A stretch of DNA of 64,000 bases, from NCBI GenBank assembly GCA_944362555.1, contig CALVTL010000003.1, positions 28,030 to 92,029 of the forward strand, given 5' to 3'. Source of the DNA: an uncultured Clostridia bacterium. Its GTDB lineage: Bacteria > Bacillota > Clostridia > Christensenellales > Borkfalkiaceae. The position numbers were made by a program, and so were the translations under genes. The notes below the pieces were generated by a model, which saw nothing but the letters and a program-made list of their open reading frames with translations, searched no databases and was not told where the DNA came from. Shown here one piece after another: positions 33,175 to 54,972 of this stretch (positions are counted from its first letter, which is position 1; every line of letters begins with the position of its first letter).

Positions 33175-35706
33175 TTATTCGTTGTCCTTTTTCTCCCCGG
33201 AAGGCGCTTCGGCGGGAGCCTCTGCGACCTCTTCGGCGGGAGCTTGGGCAGCCTCTGCCGCCTCCTCTGCGGGAGCAGCCTCCGCAGCAGCCTCGGCGGG
33301 CGTTTCTTCGGCGGGCGCTTCTTCCGCGGGAGCTTCCTCGGCAGTTTCTTCAACAGGCGCCTCGGATTCCGTCAGCGCCTCCTCGGCGGGCGTCTCTGCG
33401 GCGTCCTCCTCGGCGGGGGTGAGCGTCTCGTTGACGCTCTCCGCCTGCGTGTAGACGTCCACATCCTTGTCGTCCGTCGTATCGACCGCCATGCGCTCGG
33501 GTGCAGGCGCGCCCTGCTTGTTCTTTGCGCGCAGGGTGAGGATGACCGCAAGCGCCGCGCCGATGACCACGACGCCGATGCCGACGCCGATGAGCGCCCA
33601 CGCCCATGCGGGCAGCCCCTCGTCCTCCTCCGTCTCGGTATAGCGCTCGAGGGAGTTCTGCCAATAGTCGGCATACATCTCCTCGTCGTCCTCCGTCATG
33701 ACGCCCAGAAGGCGGGTGAAGTAGGAGAGCTGCGACGTGGCGAGATACCCTTCGCCCAGCGCCGCCTTTGCGTCCTCGCTCGTGCCCTCGGTGAACGCCT
33801 CGAACTCCTTCTGCTCGTCCTCGCTGTAGAGGTAGGTATTGCGCTTGCCGTAGTCCTCTGCCTCGGCGATGTTGTCGTAGAACTGCTGCGTCTCGCCCGT
33901 GTAGAAGAAGTAGCGCAGCGCGGAGGAGAGCTTGGAATCGCCGTCATCGGAGAGCTTGGCGAGATACCCGTCCTCCTCGTCCGTCATCTTGCCGTAGAGC
34001 TCGTTGAACTCCTCGAGCTCGGCGTTGTTTTTGAGCCCGTTCTCCCCGTTCAGATCGACCGTCCAGAGATAGGTATACGCCGTCTCGGTGAACGTCTCGG
34101 CATTCGCATAGAACAGGACGCCGTCCAGCACCTCGTAATTATACCAGCCCGAGACGTGCTCGACGTTGAGGACGCGCACGGGGCGGTAGGCGGCATTGTC
34201 CGTATCCGCGGGGGTAAGTGTGCGGTAATCTTCCACCGTGCCGTTGTAGACGGCGCGCTCGACGGAGAGACCGTTGTCCGTCGTGCAGGTGTAGTACACA
34301 TAGTCGTACGTCTCATCCGACGCAGCATCGAGCCCCACGAGCACGGCGTCCGTCGCGCCCTTGGCGATGCGCAGGCTGGTGGGATCGCTCTCCGAACCGA
34401 TGCGCGCCTTGGTGCCCTTGCCGTCGTTGACGACGTCCACGCGGCGGATCTCGCCCGCGTCATTGACATAGAGATAGTGGTGAACGCCGCTGCCTTCGTC
34501 CGAGGTGAACTCCTCGCGGTAGAAGTACGCCGTCGCCGAGGCGTTGGAGGTATCCGTCGCGCCCGCGACCACTTCCAGCGCGCCCGAGGCGCTCTGTCCC
34601 GCGCCCGTTCCGTAGGCGGTGTTGCCCGTCACGGCGTTCCAGCCCTCCCCGTCGATGTCCTCGGCAGCGAGGTAGTAGAGCTCGCCCGACGTCCCCACCG
34701 AGCTGCCCGAGGCGGGCTGGGCGGTGCGGGTGAAGTAGATGCCGCCGTTCGAGTACGATTGCAGCGTGTAGGTGTATCTGCGCAGGCTGCGGTTGTCGTT
34801 CTCCGTGCCCGCGTTCTCCACGTCGTGGTTGAATTGGGTGACGGGGTCGTTGATGCTCACGCCGTCCAGAACGAGCTCGCCGAGGTTGTAGTAGGGTTCT
34901 TCGCCCTCGTTCTCCTCCTCCATCCACGTCTCGTCCCAGGTGTAGTCATAGGGCGCTTCGGTGGCGTCGGCGCGCACGCGGTAGATCTGGTTGTAGTCCA
35001 TGGCGACGGGCGCGTCCGAATCCTGCTTGTCCGTCACCGTCATCGTATAGTAGATATAGGGGTCGGTCTTGTCCGAGCTGTTCAGCGCATACGTCTCGAC
35101 GCTGCGCGCGAGCTCGGTGCGGGTATCCGTCGCCGTGTTGTAGGAATAGAGCGTCTCGTTGAGCTCATAGACGACGTACACCGTGTTCCCCTCGCCCGCC
35201 TGCACGAAGCGGTAGAGCGCCGCGTTGTCGGAGATGCGGAAGTAGTCCTGCCTGTCCGAGCCGTCCAGCCGCACGCTCTTGAAGTCGAGGTAGGTGTTGT
35301 CCACCGTACCGCTCGTGTTGGCGACGTTGTTGGGGGTGGCGTAGTAGATGCGGTCGCCGTAAATGAAGATGCCCGACGTGTAGTCCGCCGCGACCATCAG
35401 CGAGGGGATGACCGTCTCTGCCTCGTTCTTGCCCGCCTTGACGTCCGCCATCCTGGCGCGCATGAGCGCGCCCTTGACGGGCGTTCCGTAGGTGTTGTCG
35501 GACGTGTACGCCCCGACGCCGTTGATGAAGTAAACGTACTCCCCCTTCTGCACGACGAAGCCGCCCTGCGAGCTGACTTCGGCGTCCGCCGCGGGATTGT
35601 TTTCAAGCGGCGTGAAGGAATATCCGCAGGCGGACATCGCCGCCGCGGAGACCGCCAGCGTTGCGGCAGTCGTGATGACACAGATTTTTTTGAATACTTT
35701 GCGCAT
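33175..35706 (-). CDS. large lipoprotein with C-terminal membrane helix and acidic Pro-Ala-Glu tail
   Basis: The 843-residue protein has a lipobox at MSAC (Cys27), so it should be anchored outside the membrane by lipid. Residues ~28-690 are a long, polar, strand-rich region with repeated Y-Y-F-I, Y-I-Y-Y-x-T patterns (EYVYFINGVGAY, DRIYYATPN, DPYIYYTMT, YDYVYYTCT, YEVLDGVLFYANA), reminiscent of beta-propeller proteins of the DUF5050 kind. Near residue 715 a hydrophobic helix (AWALIGVGIGVVVIGAALAV) is followed by a basic stop and ~100 residues of PAEEA/TPAEE repeats. If both anchors are used, the tail lies in the cytoplasm. I do not recognise a function. Confidence 0.82.
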   Translation of the reverse strand: MRKVFKKICVITTAATLAVSAAAMSACGYSFTPLENNPAADAEVSSQGGFVVQKGEYVYFINGVGAYTSDNTYGTPVKGALMRARMADVKAGKNEAETVIPSLMVAADYTSGIFIYGDRIYYATPNNVANTSGTVDNTYLDFKSVRLDGSDRQDYFRISDNAALYRFVQAGEGNTVYVVYELNETLYSYNTATDTRTELARSVETYALNSSDKTDPYIYYTMTVTDKQDSDAPVAMDYNQIYRVRADATEAPYDYTWDETWMEEENEGEEPYYNLGELVLDGVSINDPVTQFNHDVENAGTENDNRSLRRYTYTLQSYSNGGIYFTRTAQPASGSSVGTSGELYYLAAEDIDGEGWNAVTGNTAYGTGAGQSASGALEVVAGATDTSNASATAYFYREEFTSDEGSGVHHYLYVNDAGEIRRVDVVNDGKGTKARIGSESDPTSLRIAKGATDAVLVGLDAASDETYDYVYYTCTTDNGLSVERAVYNGTVEDYRTLTPADTDNAAYRPVRVLNVEHVSGWYNYEVLDGVLFYANAETFTETAYTYLWTVDLNGENGLKNNAELEEFNELYGKMTDEEDGYLAKLSDDGDSKLSSALRYFFYTGETQQFYDNIAEAEDYGKRNTYLYSEDEQKEFEAFTEGTSEDAKAALGEGYLATSQLSYFTRLLGVMTEDDEEMYADYWQNSLERYTETEEDEGLPAWAWALIGVGIGVVVIGAALAVILTLRAKNKQGAPAPERMAVDTTDDKDVDVYTQAESVNETLTPAEEDAAETPAEEALTESEAPVEETAEEAPAEEAPAEETPAEAAAEAAPAEEAAEAAQAPAEEVAEAPAEAPSGEKKDNE

Positions 35707-50824: not shown

Positions 50825-51091
50825 TTACAAAAAGAGGATGATGAGGGCGATGGCAACGGCAATGACGGTGCCCGCAACGTAGCACACGGTGCGGATGCGC
50901 TGCTTCTTTTTTTCATCCATCGGGGAATACCCCTTGGGTCGGAGCGCGCCGCCGCAATAGGGACAGCGCGTCATGTGGTCGAGCACGCTCTTTCCGCAGT
51001 GCGGACAGGGAAGAGCGTGCTTTTCGAGTTTCTCCCGCCGCCGCCTTGCCCGTTCCTCCTCGGCGGCGCGGCGCTGTTCTTCTTCCGTCAT
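50825..51091 (-). CDS. small zinc-ribbon membrane protein at the end of the pfl operon
   Basis: The 88-residue protein has a highly basic/acidic N-terminal helix (MTEEEQRRAAEEERARRRRE), a zinc ribbon CPHCGKSVLDHMTRCPYCGG (residues ~36-55), and a C-terminal membrane helix (YVAGTVIAVAIALIILFL). The zinc ribbon would face the cytoplasm. It begins four bases after the glycyl radical domain gene. I cannot assign a function; a role in the pfl system is only suggested by position. Confidence 0.75.
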   Translation of the reverse strand: MTEEEQRRAAEEERARRRREKLEKHALPCPHCGKSVLDHMTRCPYCGGALRPKGYSPMDEKKKQRIRTVCYVAGTVIAVAIALIILFL

Positions 51092-51095
51092 GGCG

Positions 51096-51332
51096 TCACA
51101 TACTCTCGTGGATGGTGCGCGCAATGACGTCATCCTGCTGTTCTTTGGTGAGTTTGTTGAAGTTGACGGCATACCCGCTCACGCGGATGGTGAGCTGGGG
51201 ATATTTTTCGGGGTGCTTCTGCGCGTCGAGCAGCGTCTCGCGGTTGAAGACGTTGACGTTGAGGTGATACCCGCCGTCGCCCACATAGGCGTCCAGCATA
51301 TTGACGAGGTTTTCCGTTCTCTCGTTTGCCAT
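51096..51332 (-). CDS. glycyl radical domain of pyruvate formate-lyase as a separate protein
   Basis: The 78-residue protein is the missing C-terminus of Pfl[21 protein letters not shown] (residues 20-39), [20 protein letters not shown] (residues 40-59, radical glycine Gly53 in RVSGYA) and [18 protein letters not shown] match the PFL end almost residue for residue; the free-standing homologue GrcA/YfiD has the same layout. GGGAGGAAACAAC gives a strong ribosome binding site for the ATG at 51332. PflB (675) plus this (78) is 753 residues, the size of normal PFL. It is encoded in the same operon, downstream of pflB. Confidence 0.93.
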
Positions 51333-51759
51333 GTTGTTTCCTCCCGATATTGTTGATTTTGTTGATTTTTTATCCATCTTGCCGTCGCGGCAAGGCGCAC
51401 GGAACGCGAATAACCGCACACGTCGTCGCGGCAAGGCGCATTTTGCGGGCATTCGGCACAGCCGAACGCCGCGCCTTTTACGCCTGCCGCTCCTCTTTCG
51501 CCAAAATCTTTTCCAATGAAAATATTTTGGCGATAAGTTATAATGACGTAGCAAAAGGCTTCACTGCGTTATGCCTTTTGCACCCCTATTTGCTGCTCAC
51601 GCAGCTTTTGCGGAAAGGTGAATGCGCGGGCGCTATAACTGTTGCGAACTGCCCGCGCAGAGGAAAACCGCGCGGTCAGCCGCAAGGCGTGCCCGCGGGG
51701 TGTTCCTCCCCCTCACGACGTTTTTCCGCGTCAGTTCGCGGAAAAACGTGTGAACTTTT
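51333..51759 (-). repeat. composite hairpin-rich repeat element, copy B, between pflB and its glycyl radical domain
   Basis: After the pflB TAA, on the minus strand, comes AAAAGTTCACACGTTTTTCC, whose partner GGAAAAACGTCGTGAGG completes a hairpin; then TTCGCAACAGTTATAGC, CTGCGTGAGCAGCAAATAGG, CGCCAAAATATTTTC/GAAAAGATTTTGGCG, GAGGAGCGGCAGGCG and CATTCGGC palindromes as in copy A (23.5-24.2 kb, opposite strand). The last ~45 bases before the next ATG are not repeat. No IS transposase is present. Confidence 0.88.
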
Positions 51760-53787
51760 TTACTCCTTCCCCAGCGACTGCGGCGTCACGGAGAAGGTGT
51801 TGGAGATGCCGTCGCGGGCGTAGTCGTAGGGAAGTTTTGCGACCGATTCGAGCGAGGCGAGCGCGCCGTGGCTGTCCCTGCCGTGCATGGGGTTGGCGCC
51901 CGGGGCGAGCGGTTCGCCCGCCCGCCTGCCGTCCGGCGTGTTGCCCGTCTTTTTGCCGTACACCACGTTGGACGTGATGGTGAGGATGGACATGGTGGGC
52001 ACCGACTCGCGGTAAGTGGTGTGCGACTTGATAAAGTTCATGAACGTCTTGACGAGCCAGACGGCGATCTCGTCGGCGCGGTCGTCGTTGTTGCCGTACT
52101 TGGGGTAGTCGCCCTCGATCCGAAAGTCGGTGACGATGCCCTTTTCGTTGCGGACGGGGTACACTTTTGCGTACCTGATGGCGGAGAGGGAATCGGCGGC
52201 GCAGGAGAGCCCCGCGATGCCCGTTGCGAAGAAGCGGCGCACCTGCGAATCGTGCAGCGCCATCTCGAGCGCCTCGTAGCAATACTTGTCGTGCATATAG
52301 TGGATGACGTTGAGCGTGTTCACATACAGCCCCGCCAGCCAGCGCATCATCTCGGTATACTTCGCCTTCACCTCTTCAAAGTTGAGAGGACCGTCCCCCG
52401 CAACGGGCGCATAGGGCGGCGACACCTGCAAGGGCGCGCCCGTCTTGTCGCACTCGAGCTCGTCCTTCCCGCCGTTGATGGCATAGAGAAGGCACTTGGC
52501 GAGGTTGGCGCGGGCGCCGAAGAACTGCATATCCTTCCCCACGCGCATACTCGAAACGCAGCAGGCGATGCAGTAGTCGTCCCCCATCTCGGGGCGCATC
52601 AGATCGTCGCTCTCGTATTGGATGGCGGACGTCCTGATGGAGATCTCCGCGCAGAACGTCTTGAAGTTTTTGGGCAGCCGCCGCGACCAGAGCACCGTGA
52701 GGTTGGGTTCGGGCGCGGGCCCGAGGTTGATGAGGGTGTGCAGGATGCGGAAGCTGTTTTTGGTGACGAGCGTTCTGCCGTCCACCCCCATGCCGCCGAT
52801 GCTCTCCGTCACCCACGTCGGGTCGCCGCTGAACAGCTCGTTATACTCCTTGATGCGCATGAACTTGACGACGCGCAGCTTCATGACGAAGTGGTCGATG
52901 AGCTCCTGCGCCTCCTGCTCGGTGAGCGTGCCCTCGTCGAGGTCGCGCTGGATGTAGACGTCGAGGAAGGTGGAATTTCTGCCGATGGACATGGCGGCGC
53001 CGTTCTGGTCTTTGACGGCGGCGAGATAGCCGAAATACAGCCACTGGATCGCCTCCTGCGCCGTCTCGGCGGGACGGGAGATGTCGAACCCGTAGGAGGC
53101 AGCCATCTCTTTGAGCCTGCCGAGCGCCTTCACCTGCTCGGAGATCTCCTCCCTGTCGCGGATCTTGTCGGGCGTCATTTCGCCGTCCAGAAGGCGCTTG
53201 TCCTCCTGCTTCTTCCGGATGAGGTAGTCGACGCCGTAGAGCGCGACGCGGCGGTAATCCCCCACGATGCGGCCTCTGCCGTAAGTGTCTGGCAGCCCCG
53301 TCAGGATATGCGCGTGGCGCGCGAGGCGCATTTCGGGCGTGTAGGCGTCGAACACGCCGTCGTTGTGCGTCTTGCGGTATTTGGTGAAGATCTCTTTGAC
53401 GCGCGGCGAAATGTGATAGCCGTACATCTCGAGCGCCTCCTCCGCCATGCGGATGCCGCCGAAGGGCTGCAGCGAGCGCTTGAAGGGCGCATCCGTCTGA
53501 AGCCCGACGATCTTTTCGAGCATTTTATCAAAATATCCCGCCGCGTGCGAATTGACGCGGGAGACGGTCTCGGTATCGGCGTCCAGCACGCCGCCCCTTT
53601 CGCGCTCCTCTTTCGAGAGCTCCATGACCTGCTGCCAGAGCTTGTTGGTCGCCTCCGTTGCGGGGGCGAGGAAGGAGGCGTCCCCCTCGTAAGGGGTGTA
53701 GTTGCGCTGGATGAAGTCGCGCACGTCCACTTCATCGTCCGACCATTTTCCGCGTTCAAAGCCGCGCCATGCCTTTTCAAAGTCCAT
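51760..53787 (-). CDS. pflB: pyruvate formate-lyase catalytic chain without glycyl radical domain
   Basis: The 675-residue protein matches PflB from [15 protein letters not shown] on. It has the active-site cysteine pair in [20 protein letters not shown] (Cys409-Cys410), FGARANLAK, the [20 protein letters not shown] block and [16 protein letters not shown] at the end. Normal PFL (~760 residues) goes on from LGK with the ~80-residue glycyl radical domain; here a TAA stop follows. That domain is encoded by the next small gene. No residues seem to be lost at the break. The two are in different frames and 427 bases apart, so neither a simple frameshift nor read-through joins them. GGAG precedes the ATG. 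Confidence 0.96.
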
Positions 53788-53849: not shown

Positions 53850-54125
53850 TCACCCGTCCTGCGCGAGCTTGGCGTCCAGCCACAGCTCCAGGATCTCCTC
53901 GGGCTGATAGCCCGTGCAGCGGGCGATCTCTTTGCCGTCCCGGAAGACGATGAGCGTGGGAACGCGGTCAACGGCGAGCGAACGCACCCTGTCCGCAGTC
54001 TGCTCGCTCACTTCAAGGTGCTCGACGGGGATGCCGCGCGCCGCCGCCAGACGGCGGACGACGGGCAGAAGGGTGAAACAGTTCGCGCAGCTCTCGCCGC
54101 TCACTTCCAGAAGCAATTCGTTCAT
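53850..54125 (-). CDS. thioredoxin-like protein with CANC site, in the pfl operon
   Basis: The 91-residue protein has a thioredoxin fold pattern: strand [10 protein letters not shown], active site [12 protein letters not shown] (C-x-x-C, residues ~13-16), [17 protein letters not shown], then [20 protein letters not shown] with the cis-proline (near 60) and a final helix. It is shorter than thioredoxin and lacks the WCGPC sequence. It overlaps the pflA stop by four bases and lies upstream of pflB, so it is translationally coupled to the activase. It may keep PFL or its activase thiols reduced; this is inferred from context. Confidence 0.85.
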
Positions 54126-54856
54126 ATCTCCTCCCGCTGCCATCCCGCGCGCAGGATGCGCTTTGCGTTCTCCACCCGCTCCTTGGCGGGCGGCTGTACC
54201 CCCTCGAGCGGGAACGCGATGCCGAGCTTTTTGTATTTGGGCACTCCCATCGTGTGATAGGGCAGCACCTCCACCCTCTCTACATTGGAGAGGGTATCGA
54301 GGAAGGCGCGGAGCTCATGAAGCGCCCCGTCGTCGTCCGTAATGCCGGGGACAAGGACGTGCCGCACCCACATTTTGACGCCCTTTTGGTCGAGAAATCT
54401 TGCAAACGTGAGCGGATTTTGGTTACTCTGCCCCGTGAGCAGGCGGTGCGCGCCGTCGTCGATGTGCTTGATGTCGAGCAGGACGAGGTCGGTGAGCGCG
54501 GCAAGGCGCTCGTAGCGCGCGTCCCCCGCCGAATAGCAGATGCCAGACGTATCGAGGCAGGTGTTCACCCCCTTCGCCTTTAAAAGCGCAAAGAGTTCGA
54601 GCACGAAATCGAGCTGCAAAAGAGGCTCTCCGCCCGAGACGGTCACACCGCCCCTGTCCGCGAAATAGCTCTTATATTTGAGCACCTCGCGGGCGACGTC
54701 CTCCGCCGTGCGCGCCTGCCCGCCCGAAGGGTGCCATGTATCGGGATTGTGGCAGTATTTGCAGCGCATGGGGCAGCCCTGCAAAAACACGACCGTGCGG
54801 ATGCCGGGGCCGTCCACCGTGCCGAACGATTCAAAGGAATGCACTCTTCCCGTCAT
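54122..54856 (-). CDS. pflA: pyruvate formate-lyase activating enzyme
   Basis: The 244-residue radical SAM enzyme abstracts the Gly hydrogen in PFL to make the glycyl radical. It starts with VHSFESFGTVDGPGIRTVVF, has the cluster motif CPMRCKYCHNPDTW (C-x3-C-x2-C, residues ~29-42), VTVSGGEPLLQ (near 76) and VEVLPYHTMGVPKY (near 200), all typical of PflA. GGGAGGGGGTC precedes the ATG. It is the first gene of the operon; the ZTP riboswitch and its terminator lie in the leader. Confidence 0.96.
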   Translation of the reverse strand: MTGRVHSFESFGTVDGPGIRTVVFLQGCPMRCKYCHNPDTWHPSGGQARTAEDVAREVLKYKSYFADRGGVTVSGGEPLLQLDFVLELFALLKAKGVNTCLDTSGICYSAGDARYERLAALTDLVLLDIKHIDDGAHRLLTGQSNQNPLTFARFLDQKGVKMWVRHVLVPGITDDDGALHELRAFLDTLSNVERVEVLPYHTMGVPKYKKLGIAFPLEGVQPPAKERVENAKRILRAGWQREEI

Positions 54857-54870
54857 GACCCCCTCCCGAC

Positions 54871-54908
54871 AAAAACAGGCAATCTTTGACCCTCGGTCAA
54901 AAATTGCC
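54871..54908 (-). terminator. terminator of the ZTP riboswitch expression platform
   Basis: GGCAATTTTTGACC-GAG-GGTCAAAGATTGCC is followed by TGTTTTTG. Its 5' stem takes in the conserved GGGCA end of the aptamer, as in other ZTP riboswitches. Confidence 0.88.
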
Positions 54909-54972
54909 CAGACGAAACGGCGACACCTCCCTGCGGCTTCACGCGGTACTCCGCTCACTTCGTCAGTCACCG
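54905..54972 (-). promoter_or_regulatory. ZTP riboswitch (pfl RNA motif)
   Basis: On the minus strand GTGACTGACGAA is at the 5' side and GCCGTTTCGTCTGGGCA at the 3' side, with GACGAA pairing with TTCGTC and a GCGGAGTACCGC hairpin between. These are the conserved parts of the ZTP (ZMP)-binding aptamer. ZTP signals low 10-formyl-tetrahydrofolate; binding should disrupt the terminator and turn on pfl, which supplies formate for that pool. Confidence 0.92.

Follow-up and report, generated by a model that had tools for sequence, protein, structure and literature searches.

Pyruvate formate-lyase (PFL), a key fermentation enzyme and textbook radical enzyme that turns pyruvate and CoA into formate and acetyl-CoA, has a single weak spot, in that oxygen cuts it at its radical glycine, and the locus described here raises the question of whether a PFL can be encoded, by design, as two separate chains. 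The window, i.e., the whole stretch of 64,000 nucleotides that was analyzed, belongs to the genome of a gut bacterium of the genus Candidatus Gallimonas (1.80 Mb, 92% complete). On its minus strand lie, in order, the gene for the PFL activating enzyme, a radical SAM protein (pflA, 54122..54856, with the start placed by us at the ATG of MTGRVHSF; 304.2 bits against TIGR02493, above the cut-off of 231.75, as scored on the frame 54122-54913); a gene for a small thioredoxin-like CxxC protein of 91 residues (SCANC; 53850..54125; PF00085, E 2e-7); the gene for the 675-residue catalytic chain, PflB (51760..53787; TIGR01255, PF02901), with the cysteine pair C409/C410 in IACCVSS and the terminus VTPQSLGKE; a 427-base spacer (51333..51759); a gene for a stand-alone glycyl radical chain of 78 residues (51096..51332; PF01228, NF038360) with the radical glycine G53 in RVSGYA; and a gene for an 88-residue zinc-ribbon protein with a hydrophobic C-terminus (50825..51091; PF13240, 27.1 bits, cut-off 25), which tblastn recovers in only part of the genus. 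The first-pass annotation had the coordinates, lengths, frames, and the 427-base gap right: these are two genes in different frames, and the smaller has its own ribosome site and start. The spacer contains three inverted repeats, one of them a perfect 13-bp repeat directly past the pflB stop (51718-51730/51737-51749), and a 17-base direct repeat; it was considered and rejected as a dispersed repeat, the 17-base motif being present twice in the window, both times in the spacer, with one further match elsewhere at two mismatches. At another point of the window (34828-34918), a 91-base tRNA is called as tRNA-Val(cac), which is long for a valine tRNA and perhaps a miscall.

The large chain scores as a PFL (1083.1 bits against TIGR01255, above the curated cut-off of 994.2, and 701 bits against PF02901), and its predicted fold is that of a PFL (pLDDT 84; best match 2pfl, TM 0.91 by query). 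The glycyl radical domain that a PFL of the TIGR01255 type has in the same chain is absent from it and is supplied by the next gene. E. coli PflB shares with the window pair the barrel fold and sequence (64% identity in the fold match), the cysteine pair, the RVSGYA loop, and the type of activase, but it is one chain of 759 residues; aligned to it, the large chain of the window stops at the equivalent of residue 677 and the small chain, from its separate gene, resumes at 681, so nothing of substance is lost at the junction, just as had been claimed of the VTPQSLGKE terminus. The profiles give the same picture, with positions 1-662 of the 744 in TIGR01255 covered by the large chain and 664-744 by the small one, a single position being missing, while the 106 positions of the Pfam Gly_radical profile are divided in mid-domain (2-48 in the large chain, 51-106 in the small). 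Among 33 aligned large chains, C409, C410, and the bulk of the PFL core do not vary, nor does G53 among 11 aligned small chains. Modeled without its partner, the large chain is poorly predicted over its last 75 residues (block means 32-74), and the small chain modeled alone is mostly of low confidence (mean 62).

Among known free-standing glycyl radical proteins, E. coli GrcA/YfiD likewise completes a PFL barrel and aligns closely with the window's small chain over 60 C-terminal residues; however, it has about 60 disordered N-terminal residues and supplements an intact PFL (PMC8683613), whereas the window's small chain is without that extension (100.9 bits against the GrcA/YfiD model TIGR04365, below its cut-off of 170), carries the segment equal to PFL 681-695, and has a partner that, unlike that of GrcA, never had a radical domain. 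Closer is the NCBIfam model NF038360, ‘autonomous glycyl radical cofactor GrcA3’, whose 78 positions align end to end with the small chain; the score of 154.9 bits lies 3 bits below the cut-off of 158, and we therefore call the chain GrcA3-like rather than GrcA3. None of the 61 genomes sampled from its near kin, the window's included, has a match above that cut-off. The name of the model implies a spare part, not a subunit. Two PDB chains of Formate acetyltransferase, 38la and 38lb, are catalytic chains from other organisms that fall inside the split lineage in our tree; 38la ends one residue past LGKE, and 38lb is nearest to Olsenella/Lancefieldella (82-84% identity), while the sole small stand-alone radical protein among the PDB matches is the 127-residue GrcA 6owr.

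That a PFL might work in two pieces is indicated by the laboratory construct of Andorfer et al., which like the window pair combines a truncated barrel with a separate radical domain and is active, though it was cut at residue 695 and the natural cut lies at about 677: E. coli tPFL (1-695) with truncYfiD (61-127) formed the radical and had a kcat of 204 per s, compared with 105 for intact PFL, with a radical uptake of 2.7 uM against 17.2 uM for the intact enzyme, while activation of tPFL with full YfiD was 32-fold below that of cPFL with YfiD, and its binding was invisible to ITC, the KD of cPFL:YfiD being 14 uM (PMC8683613). Since the two-chain E. coli PFL is poorly activated, natural pairs must outperform the artificial one. 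In Fannyhessea vaginae, pflB (-14.31) and grcA (-17.96) are both listed as falling (PMC11979175). The first-pass annotation knew of no described PFL split in such a way by design: among open-licence PMC papers we indeed found none that describes a split PFL or an experiment on a natural one, but the GrcA3 model and the structures 38la and 38lb already exist, and the split enzyme is possibly about to be described.

No intact second PFL, for which a search had been suggested, was found in the window's genome (92% complete), where the sole PFL-like match is the truncated chain; this is also where the pair differs from GrcA/YfiD, which works beside an intact PFL. The Gly_radical matches in this genome comprise only the two PFL pieces and NrdD, which is encoded on another contig adjoining NrdG and carries its own radical domain. 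The genome also encodes a pyruvate:ferredoxin oxidoreductase, so PFL is not its sole route from pyruvate. Given this enzyme, and given that 66 of the 103 genomes counted in the genus show no PflB-type enzyme, PFL is not essential in Candidatus Gallimonas.

Within these 103 genomes, 43 have some PFL-like match and 37 a PflB-type enzyme, which is truncated in 30 and fused in 7. A small gene lies downstream on the same strand of 28 of the 30 truncated chains, and the other two are cut by a contig end, which makes chance or decay very unlikely. In two of the seven fused cases (G420, G463) the radical domain is joined to a chain of the same type, and the remaining five are ordinary fused PFLs, one with its frame cut short (G523). 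Six further genomes of the genus (L085-L090) have a different glycyl radical enzyme, in open frames of 847-963, and no PflB-type match. For the large chain of the window, dN/dS against 21 relatives is 0.064-0.201, and for the small chain it is 0.009-0.188 against 20 (L195, whose small gene was not extracted, being left out); both genes are under purifying selection.

The split also extends well beyond the genus, and the suggestion to look for relatives in which a PflB of about 675 residues precedes a gene of about 78 codons was borne out in many genera. Matches above the GrcA3 cut-off occur in 20 of 391 genomes drawn from the class, in 70 of 200 from the family of genome G222 (at least two of the 70 being fused frames, G964 and G986), and in 1 of 398 in a wider draw from the phylum. 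In the family of G222, at least 80 of the 200 genomes have a short free-standing frame (10 of the 80 with two free copies), and 29 of the 30 loci inspected have a truncated PflB upstream of it. Closer inspection of 51 free small genes (L134-L154, L162-L191) shows the truncated PflB upstream in 49, with none seen in the stretch examined for L154 and L188. In a collection of named records, the best 80 of at least 585 confirmed matches to the small protein comprise 63 split loci, 6 fused, and 11 whose examined stretch shows no catalytic chain; these 80 were chosen by similarity to the small protein, so the share of split loci is not a frequency. Records with the split are titled Collinsella aerofaciens, Olsenella uli, Lancefieldella rimae, Ruminococcus albus, R. 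bicirculans, and Lachnospiraceae, and also Gastranaerophilales and spirochaete bins, many of them being metagenome bins whose titles may err. One Mollicute bin, titled Ureaplasma sp. Hg2, encodes a truncated PflB, open only if TGA is read as Trp, followed by one other frame and then the small gene (L263:2026-5216), and about 20 residues are inserted around residue 550 of two catalytic chains (L177, L237). The split PFL is thus a widespread lineage and not a peculiarity of the window's locus. The spacing of the pair, for the 112 of 116 split rows where the start codon could be placed, has a median of 76 bases (range -38 to 741); hence, the 427 bases of the window, though correctly measured in the first pass, are not typical. 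Ribosome sites of the small gene are on average stronger (mean -9.39 versus -8.72 kcal/mol; stronger in 42 of 71, p 0.033), which lends weak support to a higher output of the small chain.

How often the split arose was addressed with a tree of catalytic chains comprising 176 rows and 454 columns, none of them from the radical domain; the rows were taken from 217 as the chains starting by residue 260 and reaching residue 660 of the window's chain, with identical tails entered once. The split label requires 5 changes on this tree, against a mean of 48.8 under shuffling, and again 5 by a second method on a hand-picked subset of 79 rows (4 with the two PDB chains added). A clade uniting the split rows with six nested fused rows is not rejected (log-likelihood 5.1 better, AU p 0.575), whereas one restricted to the split rows is rejected (258.6 worse, p about 1e-72), the AU-test groups having been named after the first tree seen and the root being fixed neither by the shuffles nor by the AU tests. 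Accordingly, one old split with at least three re-fusions, namely L203, G420 with G463, and L155 with L156 and L261, would be the simplest history and the one that best fits the tree. A partial fused protein from Candidatus Fimimonas merdipullorum (L208), left out of the main trees, was placed later, on 263 columns, within the window's branch and possibly represents a fourth re-fusion; two other fused rows, L022 and L027, branch off at the base of the split lineage and are perhaps its nearest unsplit kin. A signature residue follows the same grouping: the glutamine of the motif LLDAQ is present in 116/116 split, 6/6 nested fused, and 2/2 basal rows, and in 1/48 of the other fused rows, of which 33 have methionine at this position and 8 were not read by the pattern. 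The main point against re-fusion is the linker, which has a length of 8 in five of the six nested fused proteins and 7 in the other, with 8 also in 47 of the 48 outside fused proteins (the outside rows L028 and L098 gave no radical domain in this comparison), and this usual length could reflect retention of the ancestral fusion. We disfavor such retention because forbidding re-fusion on the 176-row tree demands 15 splits, against one split and four fusions (L022/L027 as one) when it is allowed, and because the nested fused rows have radical domains that most resemble those of the split branch around them.

The split lineage has two branches of distinct organization. In that of the window, the catalytic chain has nearly no tail past LGKE (median 1 residue, 40 rows), and the genes run from the activase through the CxxC protein and PflB to the small gene; in the other branch the tails are acidic (median 24 residues, 76 rows), with two or more cysteines in 45 of the 76, and the activase, where found, is usually after the small gene. 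The CxxC gene is present at 35 of 38 judgeable split loci of the window's branch (missing from L069, L115, and L275) versus 0 of 3 fused loci (L079, L117, L203; Fisher p 0.0019), and the CxxC motif is kept in all relatives possessing the protein. As the three fused loci represent two independent cases, we take this only as a hint that the CxxC protein is tied to the split state.

Taken together, the split PFL looks like a long-established, functional design and not a broken gene, and, going by anatomy, conservation, and selection, the window pair is very probably an obligate two-subunit PFL; a PFL permanently of two chains by design, as envisaged from the first pass, is the best reading of a pair conserved in many genera under purifying selection. 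An alternative is that the small protein is a mere repair part for oxygen-cut PFL, as E. coli GrcA/YfiD is thought to be, with fresh enzyme independent of it. Its resemblance to proteins named as autonomous cofactors in NCBIfam favors this, as do the replacement-part reading given by the authors for the small protein of Ca. Mycoplasma girerdii (PMC5476646) and the treatment of such small proteins as repair parts in a review (PMC12288474). It might also be favored by unlinked copies: in 10 genomes a small gene has no PflB within flanks of about 5 kb (L252, which looked like an 11th, is 229 bases away from a contig end), and the neighbors of 7 scanned orphans include a Crp/Fnr-type regulator twice and a Fur-type one once. 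However, these orphans do not signify that the two chains can be unlinked, as we first guessed: in all 10 genomes a truncated PflB elsewhere has its own adjacent small gene, so the orphan is a second copy, sharing 92-97% identity with the linked one over about 72 residues. The regulators fit, if thinly, a stress-made spare of a subunit. Moreover, the catalytic chain is encoded without any radical glycine in a genome where no intact PFL was found, so that a fresh large chain could not work alone. We accordingly regard the repair part as an improbable account of the pair, although the second copies may in addition be used for repair.

Even less probable, to the point of being a distant outsider, is that the truncated chain has a radical-free job and the small protein serves another enzyme, e.g., NrdD, the argument for which comes from rumen viral contigs. 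In two of these, the small gene, which has no PflB within 5 kb, adjoins NrdD and NrdG, in the order NrdD-NrdG-small gene in L273:2236-5228 and NrdD-small gene-NrdG in L279:2812-5802. However, the NrdD of each contig, like that of the window's genome, has its own radical domain, and the invariant catalytic cysteines and PFL core of the large chain, along with the activase in the operon, are at odds with a radical-free role. Other viral contigs show further arrangements. A 73-kb rumen viral contig (L272:1962-7273, plus strand), of which L286 (79 kb) is a near-copy, has NrdD, NrdG, a radical protein of 77-78 residues, and a truncated PflB of 675 residues in a row, adjoining a DNA ligase, a ThyX-like protein, and a topoisomerase II matched by phage families; its PflB, open only if TGA is Trp, is 78-79% identical to those of the window's genus and 81% to that of L275. 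Both chains of a split PFL seem, from this gene content, to be encoded by a phage. In L274, L277, and L280 the small gene is near genes matching phage RNA ligase/tail or head families. The viral contig L275 (2941-5231) contains the split pair with an ECF transporter and PriA as neighbors and may for that reason be a host or prophage edge.

Finally, recent decay or misassembly of an ordinary PFL, which a split gene with a spacer resembles and to which the differing spacer lengths of close relatives might point, has a negligible chance of being correct, given that 116 distinct split chains all stop 0-49 residues beyond the same point, that the split is shared by many genera and assemblies, and that both parts have low dN/dS and the small gene its own translation signals.

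For the obligate two-subunit enzyme, we propose that the small chain would dock in the barrel where an intact PFL has its C-terminus, that the activase would form the radical at G53 in this chain, and that the radical would then pass from G53 to C409/C410, whereupon pyruvate would be cleaved. The probable benefit of this arrangement is that the part destroyed by oxygen would be a cheap, separately made, replaceable subunit, with the large chain surviving each hit; the similar second copies in 10 genomes fit such an exchange of small chains after oxygen damage. More tentatively, we can imagine a wider scenario, which we think somewhat less likely to be right than wrong as a whole, wherein the radical part became an exchangeable subunit once, passed from phylum to phylum among gut anaerobes and into phages, and was fused again on several occasions, letting cells swap only the 78 residues killed by oxygen, with the thioredoxin-like protein of the window's branch and the cysteine-rich tails of the other joining in the exchange or protecting the bare barrel.

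If the two-subunit reading is true, a natural PFL with its radical segment as a separate subunit would be common in gut anaerobes, many proteins annotated as ‘spare part’ GrcA would be essential subunits, and a central enzyme would have been split and re-fused in the course of evolution. A natural pair of this kind would make subunit exchange after oxygen exposure testable and would be open to structural work on how the activase gains access to the glycine.
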